Below, piece by piece: positions 13,543-40,526 of a stretch of 40,526 bases of DNA (positions are counted from its first letter, which is position 1; each line of letters begins with the position of its first letter). Position numbers and translations under genes: made by a program. The stretch is taken from NCBI GenBank assembly GCA_011389815.1, contig JAABTP010000022.1, positions 1-40,526 of the forward strand, in the 5' to 3' direction. The stretch is from Desulfobulbaceae bacterium. Lineage in GTDB: Bacteria; Desulfobacterota; Desulfobulbia; Desulfobulbales; Desulfobulbaceae. Under the pieces are notes generated by a model, which was not told the origin of the DNA, made no database searches, and saw only the letters and a program-made list of their open reading frames with translations.

Positions 13543-16236
13543 TTAGAAACTCCCGCCCATGGCGAAATCCCACTGGGCATCCTCGTCCCCTTCCTGGGAA
13601 TCAAGGTTATACCCCCAGATCAGGCGAAGCGGTCCCATTGGGGAGAGCCAGTTGATACCGAGTCCGGTTGATTTTTTGATATTGCCGAAATCCCAGTCAT
13701 CGTTTATGTCGTAGACGTTACCGAAGTCAAGAAAGGCCACTCCGCGAACCCCTGCATCGGTAAGAAGTGGAAAAAATATTTCAATATTGGAGAACCACAT
13801 CTTATCGCCACCGTATTTCTCATCGTTAGTCGGATCAATGGGGCTGATGGTTGAAGATTTGAAACCGCGAATGGAGTTCATACCGCCGAGATAAAAATTA
13901 TCATAGACCGGCAGCTTGCCATCTTCATTCTCAAAGGCCTGACCAGCAGCGAGCTTGGTATGGAAGACCAGATCAAGGGGCAGGGGGAAAAACCAGCTGG
14001 TGTAGCCTTCCAGTTTGGTATAGGCAGCTTCACCGCCCAGTGGGCCACCAGCATATTTAATACTCAGGCTATGCTTGGAACCGGAGGTAGCATTGAAGCG
14101 GCGGTCTCTGGTGTCACGGACAAAGGAGAGGCGAACCGCACTGGTGATGTTGATTTTGGCCGATTCAAGGATATAGGCTGAGGCATCCTCGGAGATATCG
14201 CTCAACTCGGTGTCTGTCCAGGTGTATCCATAGTAGATGCGCCACTTTTCAAAGAATTGATGGCCAAAACGCAGACCACCACCGGTTGCACCTTTGGTAT
14301 AGTCTGTGTATTCCCGCTCCCAGTTAAAGGCGTCAATTCCTGCTGAAACATTAGAGTCAAAGATACGGGGATCGGTGTAGGAAAGGTTAAATTTATTGCT
14401 GACTGCGCTGAGGTTGGCAGCAAAGGCCAGGCGGGTACCAAGGCCGAGGAAGTTGTCTTCTGAGATTTCTCCCATGAACATGAGTTTGTCTGATGAGGAA
14501 TACCCCGCTCCAATACTAAACTGACCTGTTGGCTTTTCCTTGACCGCAACCATAACGTCCATTTGATCGTTATTTATGGTTTCCTGCGGAATGACTCTGA
14601 CATCTTCAAAATATCCCAAACGTTGTAGTCGGTTGGTAGAGGTACGAATGGCTTTTGAGTCGTAAATTCCGCCTTCTTCCACTACCAGGTCGCGACGAAT
14701 AACATTGTCTCTGGTTCGGGTGTTCCCTTGAATCTTCACCCGGTTAAAGCTGACCAACTCCCCTTGGTCGATCTGAAAGGTGATATTGACCCGTTTACCT
14801 GTTTCAGATTTCTCAACCTGGGGCCGGATATCGGCAAAGGCGTAACCATGTTCCGCATAGAGATCCGTGAGTCGTATCACATCGTCGCGCAGAATTTTTT
14901 TGTTGAGGAACCTTTCTTTGCGTACCTGCAAAAGGTCAATCATCTCACCCCGGTCTTTAATCAGATCGCCTTGGATTTCCACAGTTCCTACCTGATAACG
15001 AGGGCCTTCCTGAATGGTAAAAGTGACATAGAGATCCTCTCCAGCCTTTTCCACGTCTGGTTCGCCGACCTTGGCCTCTATGAATCCATGATTATTATAA
15101 AAAGCCCCCAAACGAGCAGCATCCTGTTCCAGGATATCTAATTTTAAGGTTCCAGCCTCAGTGATCCAGGATGAGTACCAGTTCCAGGTTGCGGTTTGGA
15201 TTTCGTCTTCCAGCTCATCTGCACTAAAGGAGTCATTACCAACAAAGCGGATGCCGGATATGGACATCTTCTCGCCTTCGTTAATAATGAATTGCACATC
15301 CACAGAATGCTCATCCGGGTGGTCCAGGGTAAATTTGCTTTGGGCACCGTAATATCCTTTGCTTCTGTAGAGTCCGTTGATCCGTTTGACCGCATTATTG
15401 AGTTCGGCCGGATTGAGGATGGTGTTTACCTGGATATTAGCTGCATCGCGGATATCTTCTTCCTCAATCTTATCCAGGCCGGTAAAAGTGATTGTTTTGA
15501 TAAGGGGCTTTTCCTGCACCCGGAAGATGACTTTTTTCCCCTCTGTTGAGTCATTAACTTCAATTTCAACATTATCAAAAAAGCCCATGGAAAATACCCG
15601 TTTTAAATCTTTGCGCAGGGCATCCGGGCTATACTGATCACCTGGTTTTGTCGATATTTTTCGCAAGATTGCCCCGGAATCAATGCGGTTATTTCCTTCA
15701 GGGGTGATTGAAGAGACAATAAATTCCCGATTGGTGTAGCTGAGCACATCCACTAAGATACTCTTCATAATAAAGTGTATCTCAGACAGTGAACTCCCTT
15801 CGCGATACAAGGAATGGGGTGATTCCGGCTTAAGGAGATCAATGACCTGCATGTCAACGGAAATATGCTCACCAAGCATGGTCAGGCTACCAACAGCCAC
15901 ATAATCCATTCCTGCGTTTTCTGCCACCTTGGTGAGTGCCGCAGGAGAAGGAGGCCATGGGCCGCTATAGTCCAGTGCTTGTTCAGCCTCAAACCGGGAG
16001 AGCATGATCAGATCTTTATCCCGTAATCCACCTTCCAGAGCAAGGTCAACCCGCTGGCCTATGGTCTCGCTGTTTTCAGCGTTAATCTTCAGGGGCAGGA
16101 AAACAGTGTTCTGCTCAATTTGTTGTGTCTGCTGGGCAATGGCTGAAGCTGTGCTAATGGCAAAAAGAAAGAGAAAAAAAAGCAATAAGCCTGTGGCCTT
16201 TTTCACAATGGATTGTGTTTGCAATGGATGACTCAT
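13543..16236 (-). CDS. bamA: Outer-membrane assembly factor BamA with an extra N-terminal domain
   Basis: The 897-residue protein inserts beta-barrel proteins into the outer membrane. A signal peptide (hydrophobic LLLFFLFLFAISTASA) is followed by an additional domain at about 40-165 (FLPLKINAENSE to ISVDMQVIDL) that looks like a TolB-N/FlgO-type periplasmic fold. Five POTRA domains follow, starting near 172 (FIVSSITPEG), 247, 325, 415 and 495. The barrel begins near QFSIGAGYSS and carries the conserved loop-6 motif IRGF. The chain ends in Phe, the usual C-terminal signature of outer-membrane barrels. It is about 90 residues longer than Escherichia coli BamA because of the N-terminal domain. 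The usual skp, lpxD or rseP neighbours are absent; plsC lies upstream on the same strand. A ribosome binding site agga lies 7-8 bases before the ATG. Confidence 0.95.
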   Translation of the reverse strand: MSHPLQTQSIVKKATGLLLFFLFLFAISTASAIAQQTQQIEQNTVFLPLKINAENSETIGQRVDLALEGGLRDKDLIMLSRFEAEQALDYSGPWPPSPAALTKVAENAGMDYVAVGSLTMLGEHISVDMQVIDLLKPESPHSLYREGSSLSEIHFIMKSILVDVLSYTNREFIVSSITPEGNNRIDSGAILRKISTKPGDQYSPDALRKDLKRVFSMGFFDNVEIEVNDSTEGKKVIFRVQEKPLIKTITFTGLDKIEEEDIRDAANIQVNTILNPAELNNAVKRINGLYRSKGYYGAQSKFTLDHPDEHSVDVQFIINEGEKMSISGIRFVGNDSFSADELEDEIQTATWNWYSSWITEAGTLKLDILEQDAARLGAFYNNHGFIEAKVGEPDVEKAGEDLYVTFTIQEGPRYQVGTVEIQGDLIKDRGEMIDLLQVRKERFLNKKILRDDVIRLTDLYAEHGYAFADIRPQVEKSETGKRVNITFQIDQGELVSFNRVKIQGNTRTRDNVIRRDLVVEEGGIYDSKAIRTSTNRLQRLGYFEDVRVIPQETINNDQMDVMVAVKEKPTGQFSIGAGYSSSDKLMFMGEISEDNFLGLGTRLAFAANLSAVSNKFNLSYTDPRIFDSNVSAGIDAFNWEREYTDYTKGATGGGLRFGHQFFEKWRIYYGYTWTDTELSDISEDASAYILESAKINITSAVRLSFVRDTRDRRFNATSGSKHSLSIKYAGGPLGGEAAYTKLEGYTSWFFPLPLDLVFHTKLAAGQAFENEDGKLPVYDNFYLGGMNSIRGFKSSTISPIDPTNDEKYGGDKMWFSNIEIFFPLLTDAGVRGVAFLDFGNVYDINDDWDFGNIKKSTGLGINWLSPMGPLRLIWGYNLDSQEGDEDAQWDFAMGGSF

Positions 16237-23145: not shown

Positions 23146-24129
23146 ATGCGCTGTAAATGTGATTACATCACTTTTGATCAACTGGAGATATGTCCGAATT
23201 GCAAGAAGGATATATCGAAAATTTCTCAAGCGTTGTCAGGTGTTACAGTCAAGGCCGAAGTACCTGATTTTCTGCGAATGGATATTGATGAGTCAGAGGC
23301 AGAAGCGGAGGAAATGGCCTCATATGATGAAGAGACCGATACAGAAGATGGCTTTGACCAGGAGGTAGAGCTGGACCAGGGCGAGGAAGAAGTCGATTTT
23401 TTCGTTGATGATGAGGAGGAGGTGGAAGACGATGAATCAGGAGGAGAGATTGATTTTGATCTGTCTGGTGACGATGATTCGGAGGACGCAGATGATACTG
23501 ATGATGCCGGAATAGATTTGGCATTGGATGATGCAGATGATAGCGGTCTTGATCTTTCTCTTGATAGCGATGGAGATGATGAGGTCGGTGGCCTTGACCT
23601 CTCCCTGGATGGGGATAGCGAAGAAGGAGATACTGGCTTTTCTCTTGATAGCGATGGAGATGATGAGATCGGTGACCTTGACCTCTCCCTGGATGGGGAT
23701 AGCGAAGAAGGAGGTTCTGACCTTTCCCTTGATAGCGATGGAGATGATGAGGTCGGTGGTCTTGACCTTTCCCTTGATAGCGATGGAGATGATGATCTCG
23801 GAGATCTTGACCTTTCTCTGGATAGCGGTGATGATGACCTTGACGATCTTGACCTCTCACTTGATATGGAGAGTGAGAGTGGGCTTGATATCCCTGACCT
23901 GTCTTCTGGCTCAGATGATGGCGGAATAGGAGAGCTAAGCCTTGAAAGTGATGATGACGCAGGTTCCTCAGACGATGGCCTCTCTGGTTTAGACATGGAT
24001 AATCTTGATCAAGATACCCCTGTTAAGCCGTCAGGTGGCAAAAAAGGGGCGGGTGATAAATCCGGTCCAGAGGCCAAGACAGGAACCGCTCTTGATGATT
24101 TTGATATTGATTTGGGAGATCTTGGATAA
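23146..24129 (+). CDS. Zinc-ribbon protein with a very acidic repeat domain
   Basis: The 327-residue protein opens with a compact zinc ribbon (Cys3, Cys5, Cys16, Cys19: MRCKCDY, then ICPNCKKD). Residues from about 45 to 290 are almost only Asp, Glu, Ser, Gly and Leu, with the repeated pattern LDLSLDSDGDDE. A short basic stretch (SGGKKGAGDK) comes before the last LDDFDIDLGDLG. No signal peptide or membrane segment is seen, so it is probably cytoplasmic. Proteins with this zinc-ribbon plus acidic-repeat build occur in related bacteria without assigned function. The DGDD-type loops could bind calcium, but the pattern does not fit a classical EF hand or RTX repeat. The repeats are also near identical in DNA, so they were recently amplified. 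Confidence 0.8.
   Translation: MRCKCDYITFDQLEICPNCKKDISKISQALSGVTVKAEVPDFLRMDIDESEAEAEEMASYDEETDTEDGFDQEVELDQGEEEVDFFVDDEEEVEDDESGGEIDFDLSGDDDSEDADDTDDAGIDLALDDADDSGLDLSLDSDGDDEVGGLDLSLDGDSEEGDTGFSLDSDGDDEIGDLDLSLDGDSEEGGSDLSLDSDGDDEVGGLDLSLDSDGDDDLGDLDLSLDSGDDDLDDLDLSLDMESESGLDIPDLSSGSDDGGIGELSLESDDDAGSSDDGLSGLDMDNLDQDTPVKPSGGKKGAGDKSGPEAKTGTALDDFDIDLGDLG
23551..23850 (+). repeat. 84-bp tandem repeats within the acidic domain
   Basis: The motif ttgatagcgatggagatgat begins at 23561, 23645 and 23729, a period of exactly 84 bases. A further partial unit begins 45 bases later at 23774. The copies are nearly identical in DNA, including silent positions, which points to recent slippage or unequal recombination. 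Confidence 0.85.
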
Positions 24130-27394: not shown

Positions 27395-27613
27395 AAAAGT
27401 ATGTTGAAAGGGGGGATTTTAAAATTCCCTAAACAGGCAAAAAAATTGCTTTCTAATATTGCTTGTATATATATAATAAGCATGCAGGGCTTTTGCTCAT
27501 TCTTACCATTTGCAAAAAACAAACTGTTTTTATTGTTTGCCAGCAGGATAATAACTGTGGTACGTAAGGAGCTTTTTGACGTTCGGCATACGGGCGTTTT
27601 GGAGGATATAGTC
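27395..27613 (+). promoter_or_regulatory. Upstream region of the giant protein gene, possible -10 box and strong ribosome binding site
   Basis: The AT-rich segment includes TATAAT at 27472-27477 inside tatatataataag, a likely -10 box; a matching -35 is only weakly present (tttcta, 16 bases before). ggaggatatagtc at 27601-27613 is a strong ribosome binding site that supports the ATG at 27614. No other gene is seen here. Confidence 0.45.
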
Positions 27614-30600
27614 ATGACAGCACAGGATATTAACCGCTTGGACGGACAAAGATGGGCAAGGGTTTCTTGGCTATTTGATTTTATGGATATGATGATGAAA
27701 AAAATTTGCTGGATTACTGGAGCGTTGATTTTGAGCTTGCTGCCGGTTGCGGCGCAGGCGGACAACCCTGATGGTGAGTTGCGTATTGAGATTATCTCTG
27801 CCTATAACCTGGTGGTTGACTCAAACGTGACCACCCCTGCCACCTATGCCCCGGAAGCGGCCACCCTTGGTGCCAAGGTCTGTAATGACGGAACCGAGGC
27901 CATGCATGAGGTGCAGGTCTATATCGGTGATTATATTGAGGGCGGCACAAGCACACCGGGCAGCTATCCGGTTTTTGACAGCGCTGGTGATTCCCGTACC
28001 TGGCTTGCAGATACCGGGGAATATTCCCTCACACATGAATCCGGTTCTTTTGCCAATAATGAGGATGCCAGCCGGGCCTGGGTGGGTACGCTGGAACCCG
28101 GTGAATGTCGGGTGGAGTATTGGGTGGTTTCCTATCCGCGATGTGTGAATGTCGGGGGTACTCCCCAGGAACCACCCTGCGACACAGCTATCACCGGCGG
28201 CAGCACAACGGCGGATGATCTTTCTCTATCTTACGACATCTGGGCAACCGGTTCTTACGGTGCTGCAGAGACTCCTCTCGAAGCCGAAGATAGCCGGAAT
28301 TTAACCCTGCGCAGCGAGATCTCTGCATCTGCCAATAAAATCTGGCCCAACGGCGACAACAAGGTACCGGATGAGTATAAAGCTGCTATCCAGGAATCTC
28401 TTGGTTGGGATACCTGGACACCGACTGGGTCCAATCCTTTTCCAGGTCAGGTTTTTGAGACCCAAGGGATATGGTACGATCTGGGCAACGTGAACCAGGG
28501 CTTTGACAACAACAACGACGGAGTGCCGGATCAGAATGCCTGGCTGCAGCCGGTGGGTATCCCGGATGTGTATGATCCCGGCTGTTTTCGCCTTGTTGGA
28601 ACCTACGGAATTCTGATTGTTAAATTAAGCGGCGGGGGCGAGAAGCTTATTCCCTTCAAAGATCAGATGTATTTTGAAAATATACCGGACAACACCGGTG
28701 TGGTTGGCTTGGTCTTTTACGAATATGCTGCGCTCAACGGAAAATGTACAGGTACGCTGACTCCGTATCAGGAAGTTGCGTCCGGTTATCTGAATGAGAA
28801 GTTCAGTGGGGATTATGGGACGGCTTTTCAGATTACGACGCAGGAACCGTTGGCTTCCATCGCAAAAGGCGTTTCACCGGAAACCGCAGGTCTGGGTTCG
28901 ACGCTTACCTATACTATGACGGTAACTAATCCTCCTTCCTCTTCGTATCCTGCTACTGCCGAGTATCCCGGCGGTCTCACAGTAACGGTGGGAGATCCGG
29001 ATTCAGGGAATCCCTTGGTTGTGCGGGATACTATTCCGGAAGGGACTCAATATGTCTATGACAGTGCTCAAGTAGTGTCTGGTAGCGGAATTACCGATGT
29101 TACTATTCTGTATACTTTGAATGATGGAACTACCACTTCGACCAAACCTGCGAATCAGACCGAGGCCAATAACGTAGTTGCTTTAGAATGGCGAGCAAAT
29201 ACAGGGCTTGTAAATGATAGCACCATGACGGTTGGGTTTCAGGCAACTGTACCGGGCACCTACACCGAGCCCTTTGTTTCCAATACCGGCTGTGCAGCCA
29301 TCGGCTCCGGGCCTTGTTTTGACGAGGATGATGCGGTGACGAAAATCACCGGGAGCACCTCGATTACCGGGACGGTTTTTGAGGATGACGGCACGGGCAG
29401 CAACAACGGTAACGGCACCTACGACACTGCGGATGCCGGAGAAGTAGGCATAGCCGGAGTGCCGGTGGGTATTTATTACGATGCCGACGGTAGCGGAACC
29501 TACTCTGAAGGCGATTTTCTGTGGGAGGAAGTGACCACCTTGGCGGACGGCAGTTACACTTCCAGCAGCACCCTGCCGCCGGGTGATTGGTTTGCTGTGG
29601 TCGGTGATTTACCGGTCACTCATGACGGCTGGGCCAGTACGACTGGGACAGTGCATGGTGTCACCACAACAATAGGGGAAGCAACTGCGCTGGATACCGG
29701 TTTTGCACCGGCTTTGACTCTGGATAAGCAGTTTGTCGGGGCTTCTCCTATTAAGGAGGGGGATGTTGTTACTTATACGATTGATTTGAATAATGAGTTG
29801 TATGCCGAAGGTGTTGCTGTAAGTGGCGGTTGCGAATATTTAGTTTGGTCTTCAGCCGAATCAGTGACTAATAGTGCCAGCACCGCTAACAAACAGTTTT
29901 TGAATATTCCAAATGCGTTTGGTACGCAAGGGCCTGATGGTGCTTATGCTAGTGGCGACTATACAGGCGGTAATAATCAATTCATTACGGGATCAAGTTT
30001 TAATATTGATCCCAAGTCGGGAAATATCATCAAAGTAGAGGCATTGGCGCAAATCTACATTGCTTCTGCTCTTACAGATGATTCTGCAATGTTTGAACTG
30101 TACGGTGCAGGCGCACAAACGAGTATCATTACTACTGCCGATTTAAATACCGCAGTTGGTGCAGGCAACGCAACACTCTTTTCGTGGGACGTCACCAGTT
30201 TAAAAACTTGGGATTGGACCGTGTTTGCCAGTGCTTCAGAATTCGGAATAGGACTTGATAAAACAGGACAAGCTGATACTAACACGATTTACCTTGATGC
30301 GCTTGGCTACCGTATCACCACAGATGCGGTTTGTGAGAATAGTCCCTCAACCATCATCGACCCGCTCCCCCTCTATGACACCTTTGACGCCAACAAAATT
30401 GAATTCGCTTCCGCATCACCTGTACCGGACCGGCTTGTTCCCTATGATGACGGCGATCCGACAACCGATATGTATCGAATTGAATGGGACAATCTCGGCC
30501 CGCTCAATCCTAGCGAAACTACTCAGGTAACGGTTAATTTCACCGCGATGGAACCGGCAGGTTCACCGGAGACGGTAACCAATACAGCCGAAGTGAAAAA

Positions 30601-33600
30601 CGCTTATTTTACCAGCGGTACTCCGGCCAATGATGCCGACGATGCCGAGACAGTCAATCTGAATGCGACTGCTTCTATCGGCGACTTCATCTGGTCCGAT
30701 ACAAACGGTGACGGCATACAGGATGCCGGAGAGCCGGGTATTCCGGGCGTGACCGTGTATCTCTGCACAACGACTGATCCATGTGTTTCCGGTGCCCCTG
30801 ACGCAGTACAAACCACGACTGACAGTGACGGACATTATCAGTTTGACTATCTTGACGGTACGTACTACATGGCTGTGGATACAACTACCCTGCCTGACGG
30901 ATTTAACGCAACGCCGACCGGCGATCCGGACGGAACCGCCGATGGACAGACAAGTGTCACTGTATCAGGCAATACGGACAATATGGACCAGGACTGGGGC
31001 TTCAATTCCACAGCAGGCACAATTACCGGCAGCGTGTGGCAGGATTTCGACGGCGATACAAACCGGGATGATAATGATACGCCTTTTGCAGGCTGGATAG
31101 TAACATTATATAATTCTGACGGAACTGTTGCAGGTACTACAACGACGAATGCGGACGGCACATATATTTTCGGTGATTTATCGAACGGAGACTATTACAC
31201 AACTGTTACACCGCCAGCAGGCTATACCCAGACCTATGATTATGACAGTATCCTGAATAATAACAGCGGTACGCTCACTGTCAACGGCAACACCTTTATT
31301 TCCGATGTTGATTTCGCCTATCAGACCGGAGACAATTCCATCGGCGATACCCTGTATGTTGATCTGAACGGTGACGGGATAGAGCAGACCGGAGAACCGG
31401 GAATCAGTGATGTTACGGTTTCCCTGTATTTGGACAGCGGCTCTGTTCCCGGCGTACTTGATCCGGGTGATGTGCTGCTGGGAAGTGAGGTGACAGACAG
31501 CAACGGCCAGTACGATTTCACCAATCTACCTGATGGAGATTATCTTATTGTCCCGGATGAAGACGATGTCGATCTTCCCATGGTTCAGCAAACCGGAGAT
31601 CCGGATGAAAGCGGTGTCTGCACAGTCTGCGACGGTATCACCTCAGTGACCGTGACCGGCGGCCAGGATATTGATACTGCCGACTTCGGCTATGAACCCG
31701 ACGGCGGCAAGATCGGCGACAGCATCTATTGGGATGTCAACGGCGACGGTACACAGGGTGCTGGAGAACCTGGAATAGAAGGTGTTGAAGTCTATCTTTG
31801 CACTAAGCCGGTGGGTTCACTCCCGTGTGATCCTACGGATAGTGAATATGTTGGTACCGCTACCACAGATGCGGATGGCAAGTACCTCTTCTATGGCCTG
31901 CCGGATGATGATTATGTTGTTACGGTGGGGAGCGGCCCCGGCACGGAGATAAACGATGCCGACCAGACAGCCGACCCGGACAACAACGGTTTGGTCTGCA
32001 CTGATCCTTTGGCGTATACATGCGACAGCAGCCAGGATGTTACCATCAACGGCAACAGCTACATGGGCGCGGATTTCGGCTATGAACCGCCCCTGTTCAT
32101 CGGTGATCAGCTGTTCATAGACATGGACGGCGACGGCAGTCCGATGGAAAACAATGATCTGCCGCTGGCCTATGTGACGGTTACGCTCACGGATTGCGGG
32201 CCTGACAAGGACTGCGCTACCACAGGAGACAATGAAACCTATACAACCCAAACCGATGAGAACGGCAACTATGCCTTTGTTGACGGATTGGTTGACGGGA
32301 ACAAGTATATAATCGAAGTGGACACGAACGACGAGGATCTCCCGGCAGAGTACGGAGCATTAACTCCGTCCTATAATGGACATGACAGTGACGGAACGAC
32401 AGACAGCAGTATTGAGCTGACCCTTGGTTCAGTCCCTATTGATGATGCCGATATGGGGTTCAAATTCCCGGTGATTAACAACACCCTTAGCGGCACAGTC
32501 TGCCTGGAAGGCTCCTCGGTAGATGGTTATTGCGGCTCTGGGCTTAACTTGACTGATGGAGTAGCAGGCGATGAGTCTGCCTACGAAGGTACAACGGTCT
32601 ATGTATCTAAATGGATTGACGATGGCGACGGTATCGTAGAGTCAGGAGAGCTGTTCCCGATAACTCAGACCGTTACTGATGAAAACGGAGACTATTCTTT
32701 TACCGGTTTGCCTTCAGTAAGCGGAAGTAATGAGAGTTATTTGGTATCTCTTGACGCCCCGGCAGATCTACTTGAGTTGACAACAAAACTGGCTGACACC
32801 CCGCCTGATACTCCGGCGGATGCCCTGAAAGAATATATCGACCTTGATGGGCACACCACTTCGGTATGGCAGAGCATTAGTGTTGCTGACGGTAATATCG
32901 TTGCAGGGCTTGACTTCGCCTTTCAACAGACAGCCGCCTTCGATTTCGGAGACTTGCCCCTGCCCTTTGAAACCAAACTGGCTATTGACGGTGCCCGTCA
33001 TCTTGTACCGGACCCGGTGAATCCAGATCTGTATCTCGGTGCAGGTGTGACAATAGAAATAGACGGCAAGCCTTCCGTCGGTGCCATCGCTGATGAGGAT
33101 GACGGGATTGTTCCAGTTAATCCTGACACTTGCAATGCTGTTGATCCGCGTACTTCTTGGAATGAAACGGATGGCGGTGCTGTTGAAGTCACAGCCGTAG
33201 GTGATGGTTGGTTGCTTGGCTGGATAGACTTTAACGGAGATGGATCTCTCAACGGCGATAATGAGTTGATTATCAACGAGGCCCTATCTGGTGGAGATAC
33301 TCCGAAATGCATAAAATTTTCTATCCCTGCGGATGCCTTTGATGGGGATGGTAATTTTAAGGCACCTGGCTATGCCCGCTTCCGTCTCTTCCCGGTTAAC
33401 GCACCGGCCTTATCGCTTCCAAGGTTTGCCTTTAAAGGTGATGCTAAGAACGGCGAAGTGGAGGATTATCTCTTTAACTTGGGGGCACTTAGTGCTATTG
33501 GCGATGAGATATTATTGCTTAAGCCGGACGGCACAACAGAAGGAATAGAAGGCGTTGTTGTGGAGCTGCAAAACGAATTCTGCAATGCTGGGGTGGACTG

Positions 33601-36600
33601 TCCGACTGCGGTAACCGATGCAAATGGTCACTACCTGTTTACCGGCGTTGGTTTGGGCGACTATACAGTTGTCGTTAAGGAGGGAATTAGTGGACTGACT
33701 CAGGTCTATGATCCTGATTCAACAGTAGACGGGCAACATCCAGTGTCTGTCACTACAGCTGGAACTGAGTACCTTGATGCTGATTTCTGGTATGCTGCAT
33801 CTGCACCGACCACCGGCACCATCGGCGACCGCATATGGAACGACGCTGACGGCGACGGTGTGCAGGACTTGGGTGAGTCGGGGATCGGAGGCATTACCGT
33901 TGTTCTGAAAGATAGCAATGGTGATCCGGTTAAAAACAGTAATGGCGAAGATATAAAAGCCACTACTAATCCCGACGGCAGTTATTTGCTCACTGATGTT
34001 CCAGAGGGAAGCGGTTATACAGTCGAAGTAAGCAATCCGCCAAGCGGTGGAACATCAACGACTGGAGGCCATAGCACTACTGTTGATGTAGGAGCAGGTG
34101 AGACGGTTCTAACAGCCGACTTTGGATACCAGTTTCCAGAGGCGAATACTTCTGATATCGGCGACACTATCTATCACGAAGATATTGGAGGTATTGCCGG
34201 TGTCACTGTGGTGCTCAAGGATACCAACGGCGATATTATTGCTCAGGATGTAACCGATTCCAACGGCAACTACCTTTTTCCAGGTCTACCTCCAGGTGAC
34301 TATACTGTGGAGGTGACGGATACCAACGGTCAACTGGACAGCTATGTACTCACTGTGGATCCAGATTCCGGTGACGCATTGTCAGAGTCCTATTCGTTAA
34401 CCACGGTAGCAGATACCGACTACCTTGATGTAGATTTTGGCTATAATGATCCTGTTCCTACTTACGCAACGGTCAGTTCGTTCAATGCCTATGTGAACAC
34501 AGCAAACCAAATCGTCCTTGAATGGACAACAGCCAGTGAGATAGGCACCATAGGTTTTCATTTGGAACGATTAAACGAGCAGAGCGGTGAGTATCAGGCG
34601 GTAACAAAAAAACTGCTGCCCGGGATGCTGGCTCCGCCGCACGGCGGCACCTACCGCTTTGTGGATAAGCAGGCTAAACCCGGAAAAGGTTATACTTATC
34701 GGGTGGTCGAGGTTGCTCTTGATAATCAGGGTGTGATTTCCGGACCGTACGTTGTACAGGCAAGCAAGGCTTTGCCGGTGAATAATCAGATGTTTGCTGA
34801 TGGCCCGGAGGGCTATACATTGGCGCACCAGGATTTTTCCAGGAAACAGCTGAAGCGTTTTACAGCCCGAAGCAAGTTTGTTCAGGAGCTTGCTGCTGCA
34901 AAGAAGAAAAAGACGGGTAATACCCTGAAGATTCCGGTAAAGAAAAACGGATTGGTTTACCTCACCGCTGTCGAGCTGGCTGAGTTGTCTGGAATGACTC
35001 GTGTTAAGGTGGAGCAGAGCTTGAGAGCGAAGAAGTGCCTGCTGACTCTGTCAGGGGAATCCATCCCTGTCATTACGTCAAATACCGGCTCGGGTCTTTG
35101 GTTTTACGGACAGGGACCAGGCAGAAAGGATGTTAGTCACAATGTCTACTTGCTGGAACTGGGTAAGAAAGGCGTAAAGATGAAAAATACTCCGGGCAGG
35201 CCAGAAAAGAGTGTTGAGGTAGCACAGTCATACCTGGCTCAGGTTAGACTAGAGGAAAATCATCAGCCGTTGTATTTTTATAATATCAATAAACCCTTGG
35301 ATGATTTTTGGGCCTGGGAATATCTGTTTGCCTATGGTAATGAATATGTTCTTGTTCACACTGTGGATACTCCGTATGTAACCGGGGAAGGCATGGCAAT
35401 GATCACGGTTAATCTGGTAAGTGTAGCCAATAAAAAATCCAGTAGTGCAGCACCGTACAAGGTGGCTGTCCTGTTGAACGGACATGAGATCGGTACAACC
35501 GAATGGTCTGAGAAGGGCGCACATTCATTCCAGAGCGAAATCCCGGCGAATTGGCTCTACGAAGATGGCAATGAAGTGCAAATTGTCTCACAACTGAACA
35601 GGGGAGTGAATTATTCACTTATCTACTTGGACTCTATTGAGGTGGATTATCAGCGTAGCTATGAAGTAGTCGATAGCAAGCTGAGTTTTTCTGCTGCTGA
35701 TTACGACAGCGTGACGATCAGGGGATTTAAGAGTAGTAATGTTTTGGCTCTTGATATCACCGAGCCAACCAATCCTTTGCGCTTGCGCACTTTGCCTGGT
35801 AAAAATCAAGCTGGTGAATACACAATTACGGTGTCCACCAAACCGGGACATGATTATTATGTTGTTGGAGCCTCAAATGTAAATTTTGTTGGTAGTATAA
35901 CTGTAGACACCCCATCTCAGCTGCGCAGTGCAGAGAATCAGGCTGATTATTTGGTCATCACTTCCATTAATTTAATGGATTCCGCCCAAAGGCTTGCAGA
36001 CCATCGTGCGTCTGAGGGAATGAGGACGATGATCGTTGATATTGAGGATGTACAGGATGAGTTTAGCCATAGTTTGCCAGATCCAGAGGCGATTCGGGAT
36101 TTCCTGAGCTATGTGTATACGCATTGGAGCTTGGTTCCGAAGTATGTAACACTGATCGGTGACGGCTCCTATGATTATAATGATTATATGGGGTACGGAG
36201 CTCCGCTGGTCCCTAGTGTAGTGGTCTCAACCCCAGACGGTTTCTACCCCAGTGACAGTGTGTTGGCGGACGTTGTTGATGATGACGGTGTGCCAGAGTA
36301 CGCCATAGGTCGTATCCCGGTCGTTGATAGTGAGGAGCTTGATAGATATATTGATAAGGTCATGGCTTATGAGCATGCTCTTGAGGGAGGTTCAAAGACG
36401 ATGACCTTGGTGACCGATCAAAAAGATCCCTTGGCAGGTGATTTTCGGGCCAGTACGGATCAAGTGGCTGCCCTGATGCCGGAATATGTTCAAGTGGATC
36501 GTCTTGATGCCGATACACTGGGCTATAATGGAGTCAAAAACGGAATTAATGTTGCACTCCGTGAGGGCAGTGATATCCTGCATTATACAGGCCATAGTTC

Positions 36601-36997
36601 CTGGATTGGTTACGGCAGCAATAGTTCTTTGATGTCCTCCAATAGCCTTGCCTCCATGAATGACTTGGGTTCCCCCATGTTGATGGTGAGTATGGCTTGC
36701 TCTGCTGCCAGCTTCGGTTATCCACCTATGGACAGTGTTGGTGAGAGTGCCTTGCTTCAGGCAGACGGAGCCGCTGTAGGGTTCTTTGGGGCAACGGGGT
36801 TGTCTCATAATTACCTCTCAGATATAATGGCCGAAGGATTCTATAAAAGCCTGTTTGATCCCGCAATCACCAGGATTGGAGAGGCCGTTCAGGCTGGGAA
36901 ACGTCATTATCAATCTCAGGGGATGAAACGCTATCCTCTTGATATCTACAATCTGCTTGGTGATCCGGCTGCACATACTCCGGTCAACCGTCAGTAG
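27614..36997 (+). CDS. Giant secreted multidomain protein with SdrD-B repeats and C-terminal C25 (gingipain-type) peptidase
   Basis: From the ATG at 27614 (ggagg eight bases before) the product has 3,127 residues. Residues 1-49 form a long signal peptide with hydrophobic core ICWITGALILSLLPVAAQA; a shorter start at 27683-27695 is possible. Next come a unique region, a DUF11 domain (about 412-577) and a first SdrD-B-like domain (583-695). A DUF11-like stretch follows to about 1016, then SdrD-B-like repeats to 1772 with DxNGDG calcium-type loops (SDTNGDGIQDAGE, VDLNGDGIEQTGE). A GEVED domain (1774-1957), three more SdrD-B units (to 2280) and an Fn3-like domain follow. Then comes a PorU-like pre-peptidase region. 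The C25 peptidase domain (2777-3126) has catalytic His2994 (HYTGHSSW) and Cys3029 (SMACSAASFG). It lacks LPXTG, PEP-CTERM or T9SS sorting tails. A role in the surface layer, adhesion or maturation of other surface proteins is inferred. Confidence 0.9.
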   Translation: MTAQDINRLDGQRWARVSWLFDFMDMMMKKICWITGALILSLLPVAAQADNPDGELRIEIISAYNLVVDSNVTTPATYAPEAATLGAKVCNDGTEAMHEVQVYIGDYIEGGTSTPGSYPVFDSAGDSRTWLADTGEYSLTHESGSFANNEDASRAWVGTLEPGECRVEYWVVSYPRCVNVGGTPQEPPCDTAITGGSTTADDLSLSYDIWATGSYGAAETPLEAEDSRNLTLRSEISASANKIWPNGDNKVPDEYKAAIQESLGWDTWTPTGSNPFPGQVFETQGIWYDLGNVNQGFDNNNDGVPDQNAWLQPVGIPDVYDPGCFRLVGTYGILIVKLSGGGEKLIPFKDQMYFENIPDNTGVVGLVFYEYAALNGKCTGTLTPYQEVASGYLNEKFSGDYGTAFQITTQEPLASIAKGVSPETAGLGSTLTYTMTVTNPPSSSYPATAEYPGGLTVTVGDPDSGNPLVVRDTIPEGTQYVYDSAQVVSGSGITDVTILYTLNDGTTTSTKPANQTEANNVVALEWRANTGLVNDSTMTVGFQATVPGTYTEPFVSNTGCAAIGSGPCFDEDDAVTKITGSTSITGTVFEDDGTGSNNGNGTYDTADAGEVGIAGVPVGIYYDADGSGTYSEGDFLWEEVTTLADGSYTSSSTLPPGDWFAVVGDLPVTHDGWASTTGTVHGVTTTIGEATALDTGFAPALTLDKQFVGASPIKEGDVVTYTIDLNNELYAEGVAVSGGCEYLVWSSAESVTNSASTANKQFLNIPNAFGTQGPDGAYASGDYTGGNNQFITGSSFNIDPKSGNIIKVEALAQIYIASALTDDSAMFELYGAGAQTSIITTADLNTAVGAGNATLFSWDVTSLKTWDWTVFASASEFGIGLDKTGQADTNTIYLDALGYRITTDAVCENSPSTIIDPLPLYDTFDANKIEFASASPVPDRLVPYDDGDPTTDMYRIEWDNLGPLNPSETTQVTVNFTAMEPAGSPETVTNTAEVKNAYFTSGTPANDADDAETVNLNATASIGDFIWSDTNGDGIQDAGEPGIPGVTVYLCTTTDPCVSGAPDAVQTTTDSDGHYQFDYLDGTYYMAVDTTTLPDGFNATPTGDPDGTADGQTSVTVSGNTDNMDQDWGFNSTAGTITGSVWQDFDGDTNRDDNDTPFAGWIVTLYNSDGTVAGTTTTNADGTYIFGDLSNGDYYTTVTPPAGYTQTYDYDSILNNNSGTLTVNGNTFISDVDFAYQTGDNSIGDTLYVDLNGDGIEQTGEPGISDVTVSLYLDSGSVPGVLDPGDVLLGSEVTDSNGQYDFTNLPDGDYLIVPDEDDVDLPMVQQTGDPDESGVCTVCDGITSVTVTGGQDIDTADFGYEPDGGKIGDSIYWDVNGDGTQGAGEPGIEGVEVYLCTKPVGSLPCDPTDSEYVGTATTDADGKYLFYGLPDDDYVVTVGSGPGTEINDADQTADPDNNGLVCTDPLAYTCDSSQDVTINGNSYMGADFGYEPPLFIGDQLFIDMDGDGSPMENNDLPLAYVTVTLTDCGPDKDCATTGDNETYTTQTDENGNYAFVDGLVDGNKYIIEVDTNDEDLPAEYGALTPSYNGHDSDGTTDSSIELTLGSVPIDDADMGFKFPVINNTLSGTVCLEGSSVDGYCGSGLNLTDGVAGDESAYEGTTVYVSKWIDDGDGIVESGELFPITQTVTDENGDYSFTGLPSVSGSNESYLVSLDAPADLLELTTKLADTPPDTPADALKEYIDLDGHTTSVWQSISVADGNIVAGLDFAFQQTAAFDFGDLPLPFETKLAIDGARHLVPDPVNPDLYLGAGVTIEIDGKPSVGAIADEDDGIVPVNPDTCNAVDPRTSWNETDGGAVEVTAVGDGWLLGWIDFNGDGSLNGDNELIINEALSGGDTPKCIKFSIPADAFDGDGNFKAPGYARFRLFPVNAPALSLPRFAFKGDAKNGEVEDYLFNLGALSAIGDEILLLKPDGTTEGIEGVVVELQNEFCNAGVDCPTAVTDANGHYLFTGVGLGDYTVVVKEGISGLTQVYDPDSTVDGQHPVSVTTAGTEYLDADFWYAASAPTTGTIGDRIWNDADGDGVQDLGESGIGGITVVLKDSNGDPVKNSNGEDIKATTNPDGSYLLTDVPEGSGYTVEVSNPPSGGTSTTGGHSTTVDVGAGETVLTADFGYQFPEANTSDIGDTIYHEDIGGIAGVTVVLKDTNGDIIAQDVTDSNGNYLFPGLPPGDYTVEVTDTNGQLDSYVLTVDPDSGDALSESYSLTTVADTDYLDVDFGYNDPVPTYATVSSFNAYVNTANQIVLEWTTASEIGTIGFHLERLNEQSGEYQAVTKKLLPGMLAPPHGGTYRFVDKQAKPGKGYTYRVVEVALDNQGVISGPYVVQASKALPVNNQMFADGPEGYTLAHQDFSRKQLKRFTARSKFVQELAAAKKKKTGNTLKIPVKKNGLVYLTAVELAELSGMTRVKVEQSLRAKKCLLTLSGESIPVITSNTGSGLWFYGQGPGRKDVSHNVYLLELGKKGVKMKNTPGRPEKSVEVAQSYLAQVRLEENHQPLYFYNINKPLDDFWAWEYLFAYGNEYVLVHTVDTPYVTGEGMAMITVNLVSVANKKSSSAAPYKVAVLLNGHEIGTTEWSEKGAHSFQSEIPANWLYEDGNEVQIVSQLNRGVNYSLIYLDSIEVDYQRSYEVVDSKLSFSAADYDSVTIRGFKSSNVLALDITEPTNPLRLRTLPGKNQAGEYTITVSTKPGHDYYVVGASNVNFVGSITVDTPSQLRSAENQADYLVITSINLMDSAQRLADHRASEGMRTMIVDIEDVQDEFSHSLPDPEAIRDFLSYVYTHWSLVPKYVTLIGDGSYDYNDYMGYGAPLVPSVVVSTPDGFYPSDSVLADVVDDDGVPEYAIGRIPVVDSEELDRYIDKVMAYEHALEGGSKTMTLVTDQKDPLAGDFRASTDQVAALMPEYVQVDRLDADTLGYNGVKNGINVALREGSDILHYTGHSSWIGYGSNSSLMSSNSLASMNDLGSPMLMVSMACSAASFGYPPMDSVGESALLQADGAAVGFFGATGLSHNYLSDIMAEGFYKSLFDPAITRIGEAVQAGKRHYQSQGMKRYPLDIYNLLGDPAAHTPVNRQ

Positions 36998-37118: not shown

Positions 37119-37421
37119 GTGCAGCTTGACACAGTGTTCAGGAAAAGAGATAATATTGTTACGCGAAAGGTGATGGAGGAAACATTGCTTGTGCCTATTT
37201 CAGGTGAATTGGCTTCTATGGATAATTTATACTCAATGAATGAAACAGGGGCCTTTATCTGGGAGGCCCTTGATGGTTCACGTTCACTTGCTGAGATAGG
37301 GGAGCAATTGGAAAAGTTATATGATGCCGATTCTGTAGTCATTAAAGCGGATCTTATAGAGATTATTACAGCATTATTTGAGTCGGGGCTGATTGTGGAA
37401 ACCACCGGGAGTGAAGGTTGA
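37119..37421 (+). CDS. PqqD-family peptide chaperone of a RiPP-like cluster
   Basis: The 100-residue protein has the PqqD winged-helix layout: an N-terminal strand, the hallmark LYSMNETGAFIWEALDGSRS (Asn-x-x-Gly-x-x-x-W), then the LAEIGEQLEKLYD helix and a final ADLIEIITALFESGLI helix. Such proteins bind the leader of a precursor peptide and present it to a radical SAM enzyme. The start is a GTG with a good ribosome binding site (aaaggag, 8 bases before). The stop codon shares a base with the ATG of the radical SAM gene, so the two are made together. Confidence 0.9.
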   Translation: MQLDTVFRKRDNIVTRKVMEETLLVPISGELASMDNLYSMNETGAFIWEALDGSRSLAEIGEQLEKLYDADSVVIKADLIEIITALFESGLIVETTGSEG

Positions 37422-38581
37422 TGGTCAGGGAAAAGGATTGCTTTGGGATCGCTGACTCAGATATAGCACGGTATTTTACCAGGGCTACGGCATCGCGAAT
37501 ACCCTTGGCGGCCTCTTTTGAGTTGACCCGTCGTTGCAACTTTCGTTGTGTTCATTGCTATCTTGGTGACCAGAAGTCTATTCGGCGACATCAATATCGC
37601 GAGCTTGATAAAGATACAATTTTTCGTCTATTTGACGAGATGGTTGAGTCTGGAACCTTGTTTCTCCTTCTGACCGGAGGGGACCCTATGCTCCGGACTG
37701 ATTTTGTAGAAATTTATAAGTATGCTGTTCGGGCTGGATTACTGGTCACGGTATTCTGCAATGGTTCTTTGGTGACGGATGAAATCGTTCGAGCCTTTGT
37801 TGAATATCCACCAAGAATACTGGAAATTACAGTTTATGGAGCAACACAGGAGACCTTTGAAGCGGTAACCCAGCAACCCGGCTCTTTCTCCGCTTGTATA
37901 GCCGGAATAGAGCGGTTGCAAAAGGCAGGGATCAGGGTACGTTTGAAGACAATGGTGTTAACTTTGAATGTGGACGAATTTTCAGCTATTCGGCAGCTGG
38001 CAGAAGATATGGGCTTGCAGTTCCGGCATGATTGTTCCCTCCATGCAGCAGTGGCTCATGAGGATAATGGCGGGTGTTCAAATATCTGCGACAGCGAAGG
38101 TAGCTTGTCTGATACATTACAATATCGTGTTCTTCCTGAACAAGCAGCAGCTGTGGATTTGAGTATAGATAAGCTGGCACTTGAATTGGTTGAAGCAGCA
38201 GAAAAAACATGCCCGTCAGAGGCTACGTATCAATTGTACTACTGCGGTGCAGGAAAGTCGTCATATCATGTTACTCCCTATGGGGGATTGCAACCTTGTT
38301 TGATAGTGCGTACACATAGTGTTAATATATGCGATACTGGAGGACTTCAGGGCGGCTGGGACGGTGTGCTCCAGAACTTTACATCATGCAGGGCTTCCTC
38401 ATCATTTTCCTGTAATAACTGCAGAAGCAAAAACGTGTGTACTGCCTGTCCGGCTGTATTTGCCACAATGTCAGGCAATCCAGAGCAGGTTGATACTTTT
38501 TTTTGTCAGTATGCGAAAAAAAGAAGCGAAAAAAAAGAATTAAAGAGAGTGATATGGGCGAGGACAGAAGAGCGGGCGTGA
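37421..38581 (+). CDS. Radical SAM/SPASM peptide-modifying enzyme
   Basis: The 386-residue enzyme carries the radical SAM cluster CNFRCVHC (first Cys at residue 39 from the ATG at 37421; a TTG one codon earlier is an alternative) after the typical FELTRRC. The glycine-rich LLLTGGDPMLR strand follows. The SPASM part holds CGAGKSSYHVTPYGGLQPC and then CNNCRSKNVCTACP, FFCQY, the auxiliary Fe-S ligands. Such enzymes form carbon-sulfur, carbon-carbon or other crosslinks, or epimerise residues, in ribosomal peptides. PqqD directly upstream and a Cys-containing small peptide overlapping its 3' end point to a precursor substrate. The precise reaction cannot be read from the sequence. The last 25 residues are very basic because they overlap the start of the peptide gene. 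Confidence 0.93.
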   Translation: MVREKDCFGIADSDIARYFTRATASRIPLAASFELTRRCNFRCVHCYLGDQKSIRRHQYRELDKDTIFRLFDEMVESGTLFLLLTGGDPMLRTDFVEIYKYAVRAGLLVTVFCNGSLVTDEIVRAFVEYPPRILEITVYGATQETFEAVTQQPGSFSACIAGIERLQKAGIRVRLKTMVLTLNVDEFSAIRQLAEDMGLQFRHDCSLHAAVAHEDNGGCSNICDSEGSLSDTLQYRVLPEQAAAVDLSIDKLALELVEAAEKTCPSEATYQLYYCGAGKSSYHVTPYGGLQPCLIVRTHSVNICDTGGLQGGWDGVLQNFTSCRASSSFSCNNCRSKNVCTACPAVFATMSGNPEQVDTFFCQYAKKRSEKKELKRVIWARTEERA

Positions 38582-38739
38582 TAAAAAAAAAAGAGCAAAG
38601 AAATACAGAGCAGAAGCTTCATTATGAAAAGCCAAAATTGACACCGGTGTCTCTGTTTGCTGATCAAGTTCTATCGGGCTGTGCTAAACAATACCCAAAC
38701 TTTTTTTGTACAAATTACGGTAAGGACTTGACTTCTTGA
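38554..38739 (+). CDS. Candidate RiPP precursor peptide
   Basis: A 61-residue peptide from the ATG at 38554, or 53 residues from a GTG at 38578 that overlaps the radical SAM stop as GTGA. The leader holds YEKPKLTPVSLFADQVLSG, the pattern K-P-x-L-x-x-x-x-L-x-A-x-x-V-L-x-G of small peptides found beside PqqD/radical SAM genes in deltaproteobacteria. The tail after Ser-Gly begins with Cys43 and reads CAKQYPNFFCTNYGKDLTS, with a second Cys52. The Cys and aromatic residues are likely sites of modification. The gene overlaps the enzyme gene by 28 bases, so expression is coupled. The product and its activity are unknown. Confidence 0.75.
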   Translation: MGEDRRAGVIKKKEQRNTEQKLHYEKPKLTPVSLFADQVLSGCAKQYPNFFCTNYGKDLTS

Positions 38740-38743
38740 GTGA

Positions 38744-38896
38744 GTGAAATGGAGTGATGCATTAGTGTTTGTTGAGAAAAAGGTTGATGGATTTAACAAT
38801 GGCTTTTCGGTAGAGAAGGAGGGGAATTTACTTTCTCTGTTTGTTATCTATGCAGAGAATGGTTCAGTTCGGACAATCTTGGTGTCTTGTTTTTAG
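38744..38896 (+). CDS. Possible small protein between precursor and kinase-like gene
   Basis: A 50-codon frame from GTG 38744 (or GTG 38765) to TAG 38896 lies directly after the precursor gene. It reads like a real small protein: DALVFVEKKVDGFNNGFSVE, then LLSLFVIYAENGSVRTILVS. ggag precedes the second GTG at about nine bases. No family was recognised. It may be a second substrate, a clipped chaperone or chance; the 193-base gap has no other content. Confidence 0.35.
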   Translation: MKWSDALVFVEKKVDGFNNGFSVEKEGNLLSLFVIYAENGSVRTILVSCF

Positions 38897-38932
38897 ACAA
38901 TTAATAATACAGGGAAAAGGCTGATTGTTAAT

Positions 38933-39841
38933 ATGGTTCATCAGCAATTATTTATTCATCGGATTGGAGGATTGAGTGTTCATGTTGTAAACAGCATCCG
39001 AGCCGAGTTACAAGGTGAAGATACTGCCGAGTATTTGCATTTTGTTCGTCCTGTCGGTTCTCAAGGATCGGATGTTCAGGTCTGCATGACAAGTTCATTT
39101 AATCAATATAAGCCTGTGGCAGGCGATGTGATATTTGCTGCCCGATATTTAAGAATCCAAAAGGTTGGGAGGGGAATTCAGGTGCTTTACTACCGGATGG
39201 ATCCCCAGCCATATGTGACTATCTTGGTTGACCAGCAGTTTTCTCGGTTTTCGTTTTGTTTTTATTGTGGAAACGAGGAAAAGAGTTCCGGTAAAATTAA
39301 AAAGTATAGTGTTTATCCTTATAGAGCATCAGCAGATGCTCTTTTGTTGCAACACAGCTTCATTAATCATCAAGGAATGTTAATTCATGCTGGTGGTGGT
39401 TCTGTTCGGGGCAAGGGGATGGTTTTCGCCGGGATATCAGGTGCAGGTAAATCAACTCTTACTGAATTATTGAGTTCTTTTCCAACGAACCGACTCTTCA
39501 GCGAGGAGCGTTTGGTAGTTCGCTTTGTTGGGAACCAGTGGACTGTTTGGGGAACTCCATGGAAAGGGACCGGAAATATTGTACGCAATGAAAGTGCCCC
39601 TCTTTCAGCATTATTTTTTTTGAAACAGGCTGAAAAAACACATGTTACTGCATTAACTCCGTCACAAGGACTGCATCGTTTACTTCAGGTCGCCTCTATT
39701 CCCTGGTACAGTGCAGAGTGGACCAATAAGGGCATCGCTGTTTGTGAATCGTTGATTCGGGATATTCCTATGTTCGAGTTGGCTTTTCGACCGGATCAAA
39801 CGGCGATTCAGGAAGTGGAGCACCTTGCTGCTTCGCTGTAG
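38933..39841 (+). CDS. HPr-kinase-like P-loop protein of the RiPP-like cluster
   Basis: The 302-residue protein has Walker A GISGAGKST in the context HAGGGSVRGKGMVFAGISGA, the layout of HprK-related kinases found in many PqqD/radical SAM peptide clusters. The N-terminal 130 residues form a separate beta-rich domain typical of those proteins. A Walker B-like strand is less clear (RLFSEERLVVRF). These homologues are thought to use ATP in peptide processing or modification, but the role is unproven. The gene follows the precursor by 193 bases on the same strand. No ribosome binding site better than aaagg at 16 bases is seen before the ATG. Confidence 0.82.
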   Translation: MVHQQLFIHRIGGLSVHVVNSIRAELQGEDTAEYLHFVRPVGSQGSDVQVCMTSSFNQYKPVAGDVIFAARYLRIQKVGRGIQVLYYRMDPQPYVTILVDQQFSRFSFCFYCGNEEKSSGKIKKYSVYPYRASADALLLQHSFINHQGMLIHAGGGSVRGKGMVFAGISGAGKSTLTELLSSFPTNRLFSEERLVVRFVGNQWTVWGTPWKGTGNIVRNESAPLSALFFLKQAEKTHVTALTPSQGLHRLLQVASIPWYSAEWTNKGIAVCESLIRDIPMFELAFRPDQTAIQEVEHLAASL

Positions 39842-39871
39842 GCGGGTTGCCAAAAAAATGTGAGTTATCTT

Positions 39872-40486
39872 ATGAAGGGCCGTATTCAAAAAATATTGAT
39901 CCCTCTGTTTCTGCTCTGTTTGTATCCGAACATAATTGTCGCTGCTGAGTTACTCTACGAAGACTTTAATCTCTGCGAGACTCCTGACGGTTGGACCCTG
40001 GAAAACCTTGCTGGTTCCTGTTCTTGGCTCTTTAACAGCAATCGCCAGAACGAGACAGGCGGAGAAGGCTGTTACGCTATAGCCGATAGTGATAACTGCG
40101 CAGATCAACCAATGGATACAACGTTGAGTATTTCTTCTATTGACTGCTCCACCTCAAGCGGAACAAAGCTTTTCTTTAATTATGATGCATTGCATAGTAT
40201 TGGTAATACTTCATTTACTGTTCAGCTTTCCGTGAACGGCGGCACAGAGTGGGTGGATATATGGCATAGAACAGAATCCGATCTTGGCCCGAAAACAGCA
40301 AGTGTTGATATCAGTGCGGTAGCGGACGGCCAATCCTCTGTACTTCTCCGTTTTCATTACTACACGGATAAATCGGACTTCTGGTGGCAGGTTGATGATG
40401 TGAGGGTGTCCGCCGATGAAAAGAATACCTTTAACGGGATCCCCTTTTTACAGGCCCCTGACAGCCTTTTTCTGCTAGCTGGTTAA
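39872..40486 (+). CDS. Secreted choice-of-anchor-J-like (MAM-like) domain protein
   Basis: From the ATG at 39872 the protein has 204 residues: a signal peptide (ILIPLFLLCLYPNIIVAA) and one beta-sandwich domain. The pattern LYEDFN-x-C-x-x-P-x-GW, then YAIADSDN, STSSGTKLFFNYDA, QLSVNGGTEWVDIW and FWWQVDDVRV, is that of the choice-of-anchor J or MAM-like domain of surface proteins. The chain stops soon after the domain (GIPFLQAPDSLFLLAG), without an anchor, so a once longer protein may have been cut. A GTG at 39860 is a possible alternative start. It lies 30 bases after the kinase-like gene and could be co-transcribed; whether it is functionally linked is open. Confidence 0.75.
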   Translation: MKGRIQKILIPLFLLCLYPNIIVAAELLYEDFNLCETPDGWTLENLAGSCSWLFNSNRQNETGGEGCYAIADSDNCADQPMDTTLSISSIDCSTSSGTKLFFNYDALHSIGNTSFTVQLSVNGGTEWVDIWHRTESDLGPKTASVDISAVADGQSSVLLRFHYYTDKSDFWWQVDDVRVSADEKNTFNGIPFLQAPDSLFLLAG

Positions 40487-40526
40487 TCTTTTAATTTTAC
40501 ACCAGAAAAAAATGGACATTTGAGAT

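Follow-up and report, generated by a model that had tools for sequence, protein, structure and literature searches.

What product does the row of four small genes near the end of a Desulfobulbaceae contig make? The stretch in question, contig JAABTP010000022.1 of assembly GCA_011389815.1, was analysed over its whole length of 40,526 nucleotides, hereafter the window, and is contig C134 within a 4.0 Mb genome. A preliminary description had placed genes for a PqqD-like protein, a radical S-adenosylmethionine (SAM)/SPASM enzyme, a 61-residue peptide and an HprK-like P-loop protein, in this order, at positions 37119–39841; the open reading frames (ORFs), which in the window and all other loci are our own gene calls, agree. 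The overlapping starts that it reported hold for the PqqD-like and radical SAM genes (4 bases) and for the radical SAM and peptide genes (28 bases), but not for the HprK-like gene, which is separated from the peptide gene by 193 bases. The KPxLxxxxL leader and the 19-residue tail with two Cys, Tyr and Phe are likewise as read from the peptide ORF, which would have 78 residues if read from an alternative TTG start at 38503. Our answer, which we regard as probable while leaving real room for others, is that the cluster makes a radical SAM-modified, ribosomally synthesized and post-translationally modified peptide (RiPP), probably thioether-crosslinked, with a phosphate on the terminal Ser and a cut made by a signal-peptidase-like protease whose gene is usually found nearby. 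The strongest clue is the terminal Ser paired with an HprK-like gene; this pairing, the signal-peptidase-like gene of relatives and the upstream C25 peptidase were all absent from the preliminary description.

A conserved leader and a near-invariant terminal serine

The peptide, PqqD-like, radical SAM and HprK-like genes are found together in 9/9 near loci (L033–L041, tblastn), which argues that the four-gene set is not a chance grouping; close homologues of the radical SAM enzyme (49–72% identity) occur in nine genomes of the same family. Five of the near loci encode one peptide and four encode two (L035, L037, L038 and L040), with one of the two preceding the radical SAM gene in L037 and L038, and with two HprK-like genes in L035. 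No Pfam or NCBIfam model matched the window peptide. Its homologues share the leader YxKPxLxxVxLxADxVLxxC plus one further Cys, and in the tail the Cys and the last Ser are kept while the rest is variable, so that the tail conservation sought by the preliminary description is confined to these residues; a variable core is usual for a RiPP. The same description had named absence of the small peptide beside homologous enzymes as the finding that would speak against it, and in relatives the peptide is conserved beside them. With the leader found in this company, the proposal that the cluster is RiPP-like and that the 61-residue peptide is its precursor is well supported, and the general features of a RiPP locus are present, namely a short precursor whose leader is conserved and whose core varies, adjoined by a leader-binding protein and a tailoring enzyme.

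The terminal Ser was tallied with leader models that extend to the first conserved Cys and no further, which left the tail next to no role in picking the peptides. Across 52 loci scanned, 31 peptides were picked at E < 1e-4, and 29 of these end in Ser, the others being Ala in L035 (one of its two peptides) and Lys in L051; all 31 carry, beyond the leader Cys, one or two additional Cys. By comparison, 10.1% of 7580 ORFs of 40–110 residues from the same loci end in Ser. The corresponding binomial tail is 5e-27, a figure that is not a probability of independent events, as the peptides are related. Better arguments are the variable position −2 (Gly, the commonest residue, in 11/31 at best), the differing Ser codons (all six in use: TCC 9, TCA 7, TCT 6, AGC 3, AGT 2 and TCG 2) and the long branches of the kinase tree. 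At the looser limit of E ≤ 0.3, the 48 peptides end in Ser (40), Thr (3), Ala (2), Lys, Arg and Gly (1 each). Most of the 31 leaders also served to build the leader models. Among the six leaders outside model building, those of L084, L099, L123, L124 and L146 belong to Ser-ended peptides and that of L147 to one ending in Asn; the first four are part of the 31, L146 and L147 were found later, and L123 shares its genome with L083, a model leader.

Homologous enzymes adjoin the leader matches below E 1e-4 at every locus except L124, where a Ser-ended family peptide (2653–2898) has no partner genes in 10.5 kb and HprK-like genes lie on two other contigs of the genome. Neither model nor pattern found a leader-type peptide in the HprK-bearing loci L091, L096, L097, L102, L103, L106, L107 and L110, which were left out of the leader-type peptide counts and of the tree. 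At L095, two peptides (12707–12931 and 15396–15557) end in Thr and adjoin a kinase of the same branch. We rejected a lipoprotein reading of the LSGC motif, which is lipobox-like in some members; position −1 is frequently occupied by residues other than Gly, Ala or Ser, and no preceding hydrophobic segment was apparent by eye.

The HprK-like protein and its predicted substrate

A C-terminal Ser has precedent as the substrate of such an enzyme: according to passages of PMC8498205, HPr kinase homologues of lasso peptide clusters place a phosphate on a C-terminal Ser and make few other demands on the sequence. In the corresponding passages of PMC10368454, the lasso HprK homologue BsfK depends on a His, P-loop residues and D186–D187, and is served by a YxxPxL leader and a PqqD-like B1 protein. 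HprK-related models match the window protein weakly (29.7 bits, cut-off 200), and the family profile aligns to the HPr kinase 1jb1 (E 5e-5), with three unrelated P-loop proteins ranking above it in the same list; the aligned part takes in the His, the P-loop and both Asp of the pair. Among 20 aligned sequences, one of them that of the window, H152, S169, G170, G172, K173 and T175 are invariant; His152 is kept in the window protein, and so are the P-loop residues S169, G170, G172, K173 and S174.

A tree was built from 54 HprK-like proteins to which a peptide had been assigned, one ending in Ser for 35 of them and otherwise for 19; some of the peptides (e.g., those of L046, L094, L100 and L101) were assigned by pattern or by eye. 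The terminal residue of the peptide changes six times on this tree versus 16 times in shuffles, and none of 500 shuffles was as low; the nine ScmC-locus proteins group on a branch of their own (100/100). In most Ser-ended members the acidic pair and the residue that follows it read DDR, DER or EER, and in L051 and L147, with non-Ser peptides, they read EEN and DEN. Two observations do not fit such a rule in simple form: that Arg is missing from the kinases of L100 and L101 too, yet their pattern-found peptides end in Ser, and the Ala-ended peptide of L035 is paired with a kinase from the branch to which the window protein belongs. In L087 (6727–8754), L090 (5463–7457), L091 (6813–8825) and L094 (6836–8845), single ORFs of about 670 residues have matches to the radical SAM profile as well as to the HprK-like one and are apparently natural fusions of the two enzymes.

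Several points weigh against terminal Ser phosphorylation. The Asp-Asp pair is E191–E192 in the window protein and reads Asp-Glu, Glu-Asp or Glu-Glu in the ten nearest homologues (L033–L041), Asp-Asp being present in the L042 and L086 kinases, and an AlphaFold2 model of the kinase from three sequences reached a pLDDT (predicted local distance difference test) of 33.5. Peptides without a terminal Ser adjoin HprK-like genes in L035 (Ala), L051 (Lys) and L147 (Asn), as do the weakly matching peptides of L104, L109 and L111. Control loci without an HprK-like gene are hardly to be had: L050 alone has the PqqD-like and radical SAM genes with no HprK-like gene in 10.1 kb and a candidate peptide ending in Asp, on a contig that stops shortly past the radical SAM gene. 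Among the listed ORFs of eight near loci, no transporter gene was recognised. Furthermore, BsfK acts on the internal Ser3, aided by the PqqD-like B1 protein, as described in passages of PMC10368454, so HprK homology by itself leaves the phosphorylation site unfixed.

These observations give substance to a rival explanation, in which the cluster still makes a radical SAM RiPP and the HprK-like protein is a pseudokinase, a regulator or an enzyme acting elsewhere, the Ser being read by a protease, exporter or partner. The Glu-Glu pair of the window protein, the internal target of BsfK, and the HprK-like proteins that adjoin non-Ser peptides in SynChlorMet cassettes and on a Butyrivibrio plasmid (see below) all fit this explanation. 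Set against it are the retained His, Walker A motif and acidic pair, the association of the terminal Ser with the HprK tree beyond chance, and the C-terminal Ser substrate described for this kind of enzyme in the published passages cited above. We consider the non-kinase explanation unlikely, though of a weight that has to be reckoned with.

Proposed radical SAM chemistry and relation to known peptide classes

For the radical SAM protein, a 20-sequence alignment including the window shows no variation at the Cys residues of the CxxxCxxC motif or at seven Cys in the C-terminal part, and the solved chains closest to its profile are SkfB (1.9e-26) and PqqE (1.1e-23). The protein falls below the cut-offs of the best 25 of 75 NCBIfam models. 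The window leader YEKPKL fits the YxxPxL of lasso leaders as well as the W/Y/LxxP motif, which passages of PMC12710340 describe as bound by RiPP recognition elements (RREs) of the PqqD group. On account of the kinase motifs, the lasso precedent, the fit of the leader motif, the profile likeness to SkfB and PqqE and the S26-like gene nearby, we propose a four-step scheme. The PqqD-like protein would bind the YEKPKL part of the leader and present the precursor to the radical SAM/SPASM enzyme. This enzyme would most likely join a core Cys to another residue, as a thioether of the sactipeptide or ranthipeptide type or similar. The HprK-like protein would phosphorylate the terminal Ser, and the S26-like protease may remove the leader near the first conserved Cys. 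The analysis itself establishes the order of the genes, the conservation of leader, Cys and terminal Ser, and their co-occurrence with the HprK-like gene; the four reactions are inferred, as is any connection between the product and the C25 peptidase and surface proteins of the operon. A defence role was discarded: only viperin-type models matched the radical SAM domain, at ≤58.4 bits, as expected within the superfamily.

Sactipeptides and ranthipeptides (SkfB, PapB, StsB) resemble this system in joining a SPASM radical SAM enzyme to a Cys peptide, and both SPASM-type Cys and substrate Cys are present here, where the thioether is predicted. The system differs in scoring below the family cut-offs, in its HprK-like and S26-like partners and in its conserved terminal Ser, with a crosslink that is putative. 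A second rival explanation makes the peptide the precursor of a small redox cofactor excised from the tail, in the style of pyrroloquinoline quinone (PQQ) or mycofactocin. As in the PQQ pathway (PqqA, PqqD, PqqE), a PqqD-like protein and a PqqE-like radical SAM enzyme, with PqqE as second-best solved match, would act on a ribosomal peptide. A cofactor precursor would require an invariant core, however, and the tails here have no fixed core motif and share only Cys and the last Ser; the PQQ equivalogs also score below cut-off (PqqD 29.8 of 46 bits, PqqE 55.8 of 381.35 bits). We hold the cofactor explanation to be improbable.

Phosphorylated lasso peptides (paeninodin; the ThcoK, SyanK and BsfK systems), as described in the passages cited above, share a PqqD-like leader binder, a YxxPxL leader and an HPr kinase homologue with this cluster and, in most systems, a precursor with C-terminal Ser. 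The pairing that marks them, an HPr kinase homologue with a Ser-ended precursor, is found here as well, the kinase activity being predicted; the radical SAM/SPASM enzyme and the Cys-containing core set this cluster apart from theirs. By ORF reading, with no model search made for the cyclase, neither lasso cyclase nor B2 peptidase was found beside the cluster in the window or the near loci with listed ORFs, and the one Transglut_core3 match of the genome (26.1 of 26 bits) lies on a different contig. With no cyclase or B2 peptidase nearby, lasso peptide membership was rejected. PadeK is a further kinase of this group.

The SynChlorMet cassette (ScmA, ScmC–ScmF) combines the same kinds of parts, HprK-like, PqqD-like and radical SAM/SPASM, which suggests a third rival explanation, that the cluster is itself such a cassette. 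SynChlorMet loci differ in having mostly two radical SAM genes, where one adjoins here, peptides without terminal Ser (many of them with CxxG-like repeats) and kinases on another branch, as the nine ScmC-locus proteins of the tree show. The window scores far below the SynChlorMet cut-offs (ScmC 24.6 of 125, ScmE 78.2 of 400, ScmF 72.5 of 400, ScmD 20.2 of 100), and TIGR04252 (ScmA) matched neither the window peptide nor the peptides of four relatives. On these scores, the missing ScmA match and the separate kinase branch, membership was rejected, and we judge it very improbable. ScmC scores above cut-off in 17/395 genomes of the phylum. A peptide scan of 18 ScmC loci together with L105, L106, L107 and L110 gave 22 pattern matches, of which 13 were taken as peptides by eye; these come from 10/18 ScmC loci (L159, L160, L163, L165, L167, L168 twice, L170, L172, L173 and L174) and from L105 and L106. 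None of the 13 ends in Ser (L106 ends in Thr), and in 8/18 ScmC loci pattern and eye found no candidate. Scanned with TIGR04252 (cut-off 35), four ScmC-locus candidates (L168 10991–11269, L174 7383–7625, L172 9681–9920 and L160 7233–7448) gave two weak matches (22.1 and 13.6 bits) and two without match, so the ScmA model may be too narrow.

An HprK search of plasmids returned two records, from Prevotella and Butyrivibrio, both about 25% identical. On the Butyrivibrio fibrisolvens plasmid pNP243 (L179 5587–7610), genes for an HprK-like protein, a 57-residue YVKPEL peptide with several Cys, a PqqD protein and an S24/S26 peptidase stand in a row; the peptide ends in Trp, and no radical SAM gene is annotated in 12.4 kb. 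The HprK/PqqD/S26 module is thus wider than the system described here, and a terminal Ser is not universal in it.

Genomic surroundings, distribution and significance

Features of the window at and around the cluster, from our own ORF readings
Feature	Position	Strand	Evidence
Giant protein, SdrD_B repeats and C-terminal peptidase C25 domain, 3198 aa in longest reading	27401..36997	+	Pfam
PqqD-like RiPP recognition protein, 100 aa, GTG start	37119..37421	+	Pfam PF05402 58.3 bits, cut-off 23.4
Radical SAM/SPASM peptide maturase, 387 aa from TTG	37418..38581	+	Pfam Radical_SAM 87 bits, cut-off 29.5
Precursor peptide, 61 aa from ATG, leader YEKPKLTPVSLFADQVLSG, tail CAKQYPNFFCTNYGKDLTS, last residue Ser	38554..38739	+	Leader profile E 3.1e-13, the window leader being among those that built the profile
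HprK-like P-loop protein, 302 aa, predicted C-terminal-serine kinase	38933..39841	+	Weak HprK-model matches, profile alignment
Probably secreted protein, homologue of relatives' choice-of-anchor J protein	39860..40486	+	44% identical to L034 protein

A giant C25 gene lies upstream of the PqqD gene in the window and the nine nearest loci, so that C25, PqqD-like, radical SAM, peptide and HprK-like genes stand together in all of L033–L041. Among 54 loci examined, 15 have a C25 homologue (the window, L033–L041, L042, L043, L048, L082 and L086). In the window protein, Pfam places Peptidase_C25 (251.4 bits) at residues 450–791 of the 798 C-terminal residues and also matches SdrD_B; the peptidase domain is of the gingipain type, and a start at an internal Met would give a signal peptide. 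Downstream of the HprK-like gene, relatives encode choice-of-anchor J (several), signal-peptidase-like and CarboxypepD_reg proteins. NF038128 matches the choice-of-anchor J protein of L034 (48.3 bits, cut-off 30), and no NCBIfam model matches the window copy. The choice-of-anchor J type proteins of L034, L036, L039, L040 and L041 share an FNWLLFLPAI-like motif at their C-termini, possibly a sorting signal so far not recognised as such; the end of the window copy is different. Elsewhere in the window, at 23146–24129, lies a protein made mostly of Asp/Ser/Leu-rich near-repeats behind a Cys-containing N-terminus.

The S26-like protease gene is near the cluster in 39/54 loci, adjoining it in most relatives, and in three of these TIGR02228 scores 30 to 48 bits (cut-off 51.85). 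In the genome of the window, where the contig ends 40 bases past the last gene of the table, contig C227 ends with an S26-like gene and one for a CarboxypepD_reg-resembling protein, arranged as expected, and the contigs C134 and C227 therefore probably belong together. The end of the window (40486–40526) and the end of C227 (L177) carry similar, non-identical versions of the 3' end of the same gene, which suggests that the assembly broke within sequence that is variable or duplicated.

The genus of the window is probably one of cable bacteria. The leader is present in 7/8 of its genomes (the exception is 69% complete), in 17/257 genomes of the class and in 10/395 sampled genomes of the phylum of the Desulfobulbaceae (E ≤ 0.001), the phylum being the scope of the survey; many of the genomes are fragmented and may be metagenome-assembled. 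The HprK profile occurs in at least 28/395 phylum genomes (E ≤ 1e-20; a lower bound, with up to five candidates scored per genome), and all ten leader genomes fall among these 28: the window's own, six that had supplied model leaders, and three (G346, G418 and G464) that had not. The 30 loci picked by the HprK profile have a radical SAM gene in 27 cases and a PqqD gene in 25, some gaps being contig ends. Such prevalence in the genus, together with the nickel bis(dithiolene) cofactor that passages of PMC11247825 report in cable-bacterium fibres, would fit a fourth rival explanation, in which the operon serves a structure of cable bacteria, at the surface or in the conductive fibre, and the modified Cys peptide is a metal or sulfur ligand there. 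The module also occurs in other families of the phylum and is thus not a cable trait, and no result here supports a link between peptide and metal; we regard this explanation as extremely improbable.

Taken together, we tentatively propose, at a confidence somewhat short of even, an undescribed RiPP class that spans at least ten families within the phylum, and possibly reaches further, in which a radical SAM/SPASM Cys crosslink would be combined with C-terminal Ser phosphorylation. The phosphate could be a handle for export, attachment or activity, and in the genus the pathway may be coupled to the C25 peptidase and the surface proteins. We found no report of an HPr kinase homologue with a radical SAM RiPP among the open-licence papers listed, which is weak evidence, as subscription literature lay mostly outside the search; words beginning with HPr are absent from the main texts of the RRE papers and the Bacteroidales mining paper checked, and radical SAM and PqqD from those of the cable-bacteria papers checked by term search. 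In the passages available to us, C-terminal Ser phosphorylation is described only for lasso peptides. If our reading is true, this modification extends from lasso peptides to radical SAM peptides, and a one-residue rule, a terminal Ser beside an adjoining HprK-like gene, would make the precursors of otherwise unrecognised clusters findable. It would also place a peptide pathway in nearly all examined genomes of the probable cable-bacterium genus.

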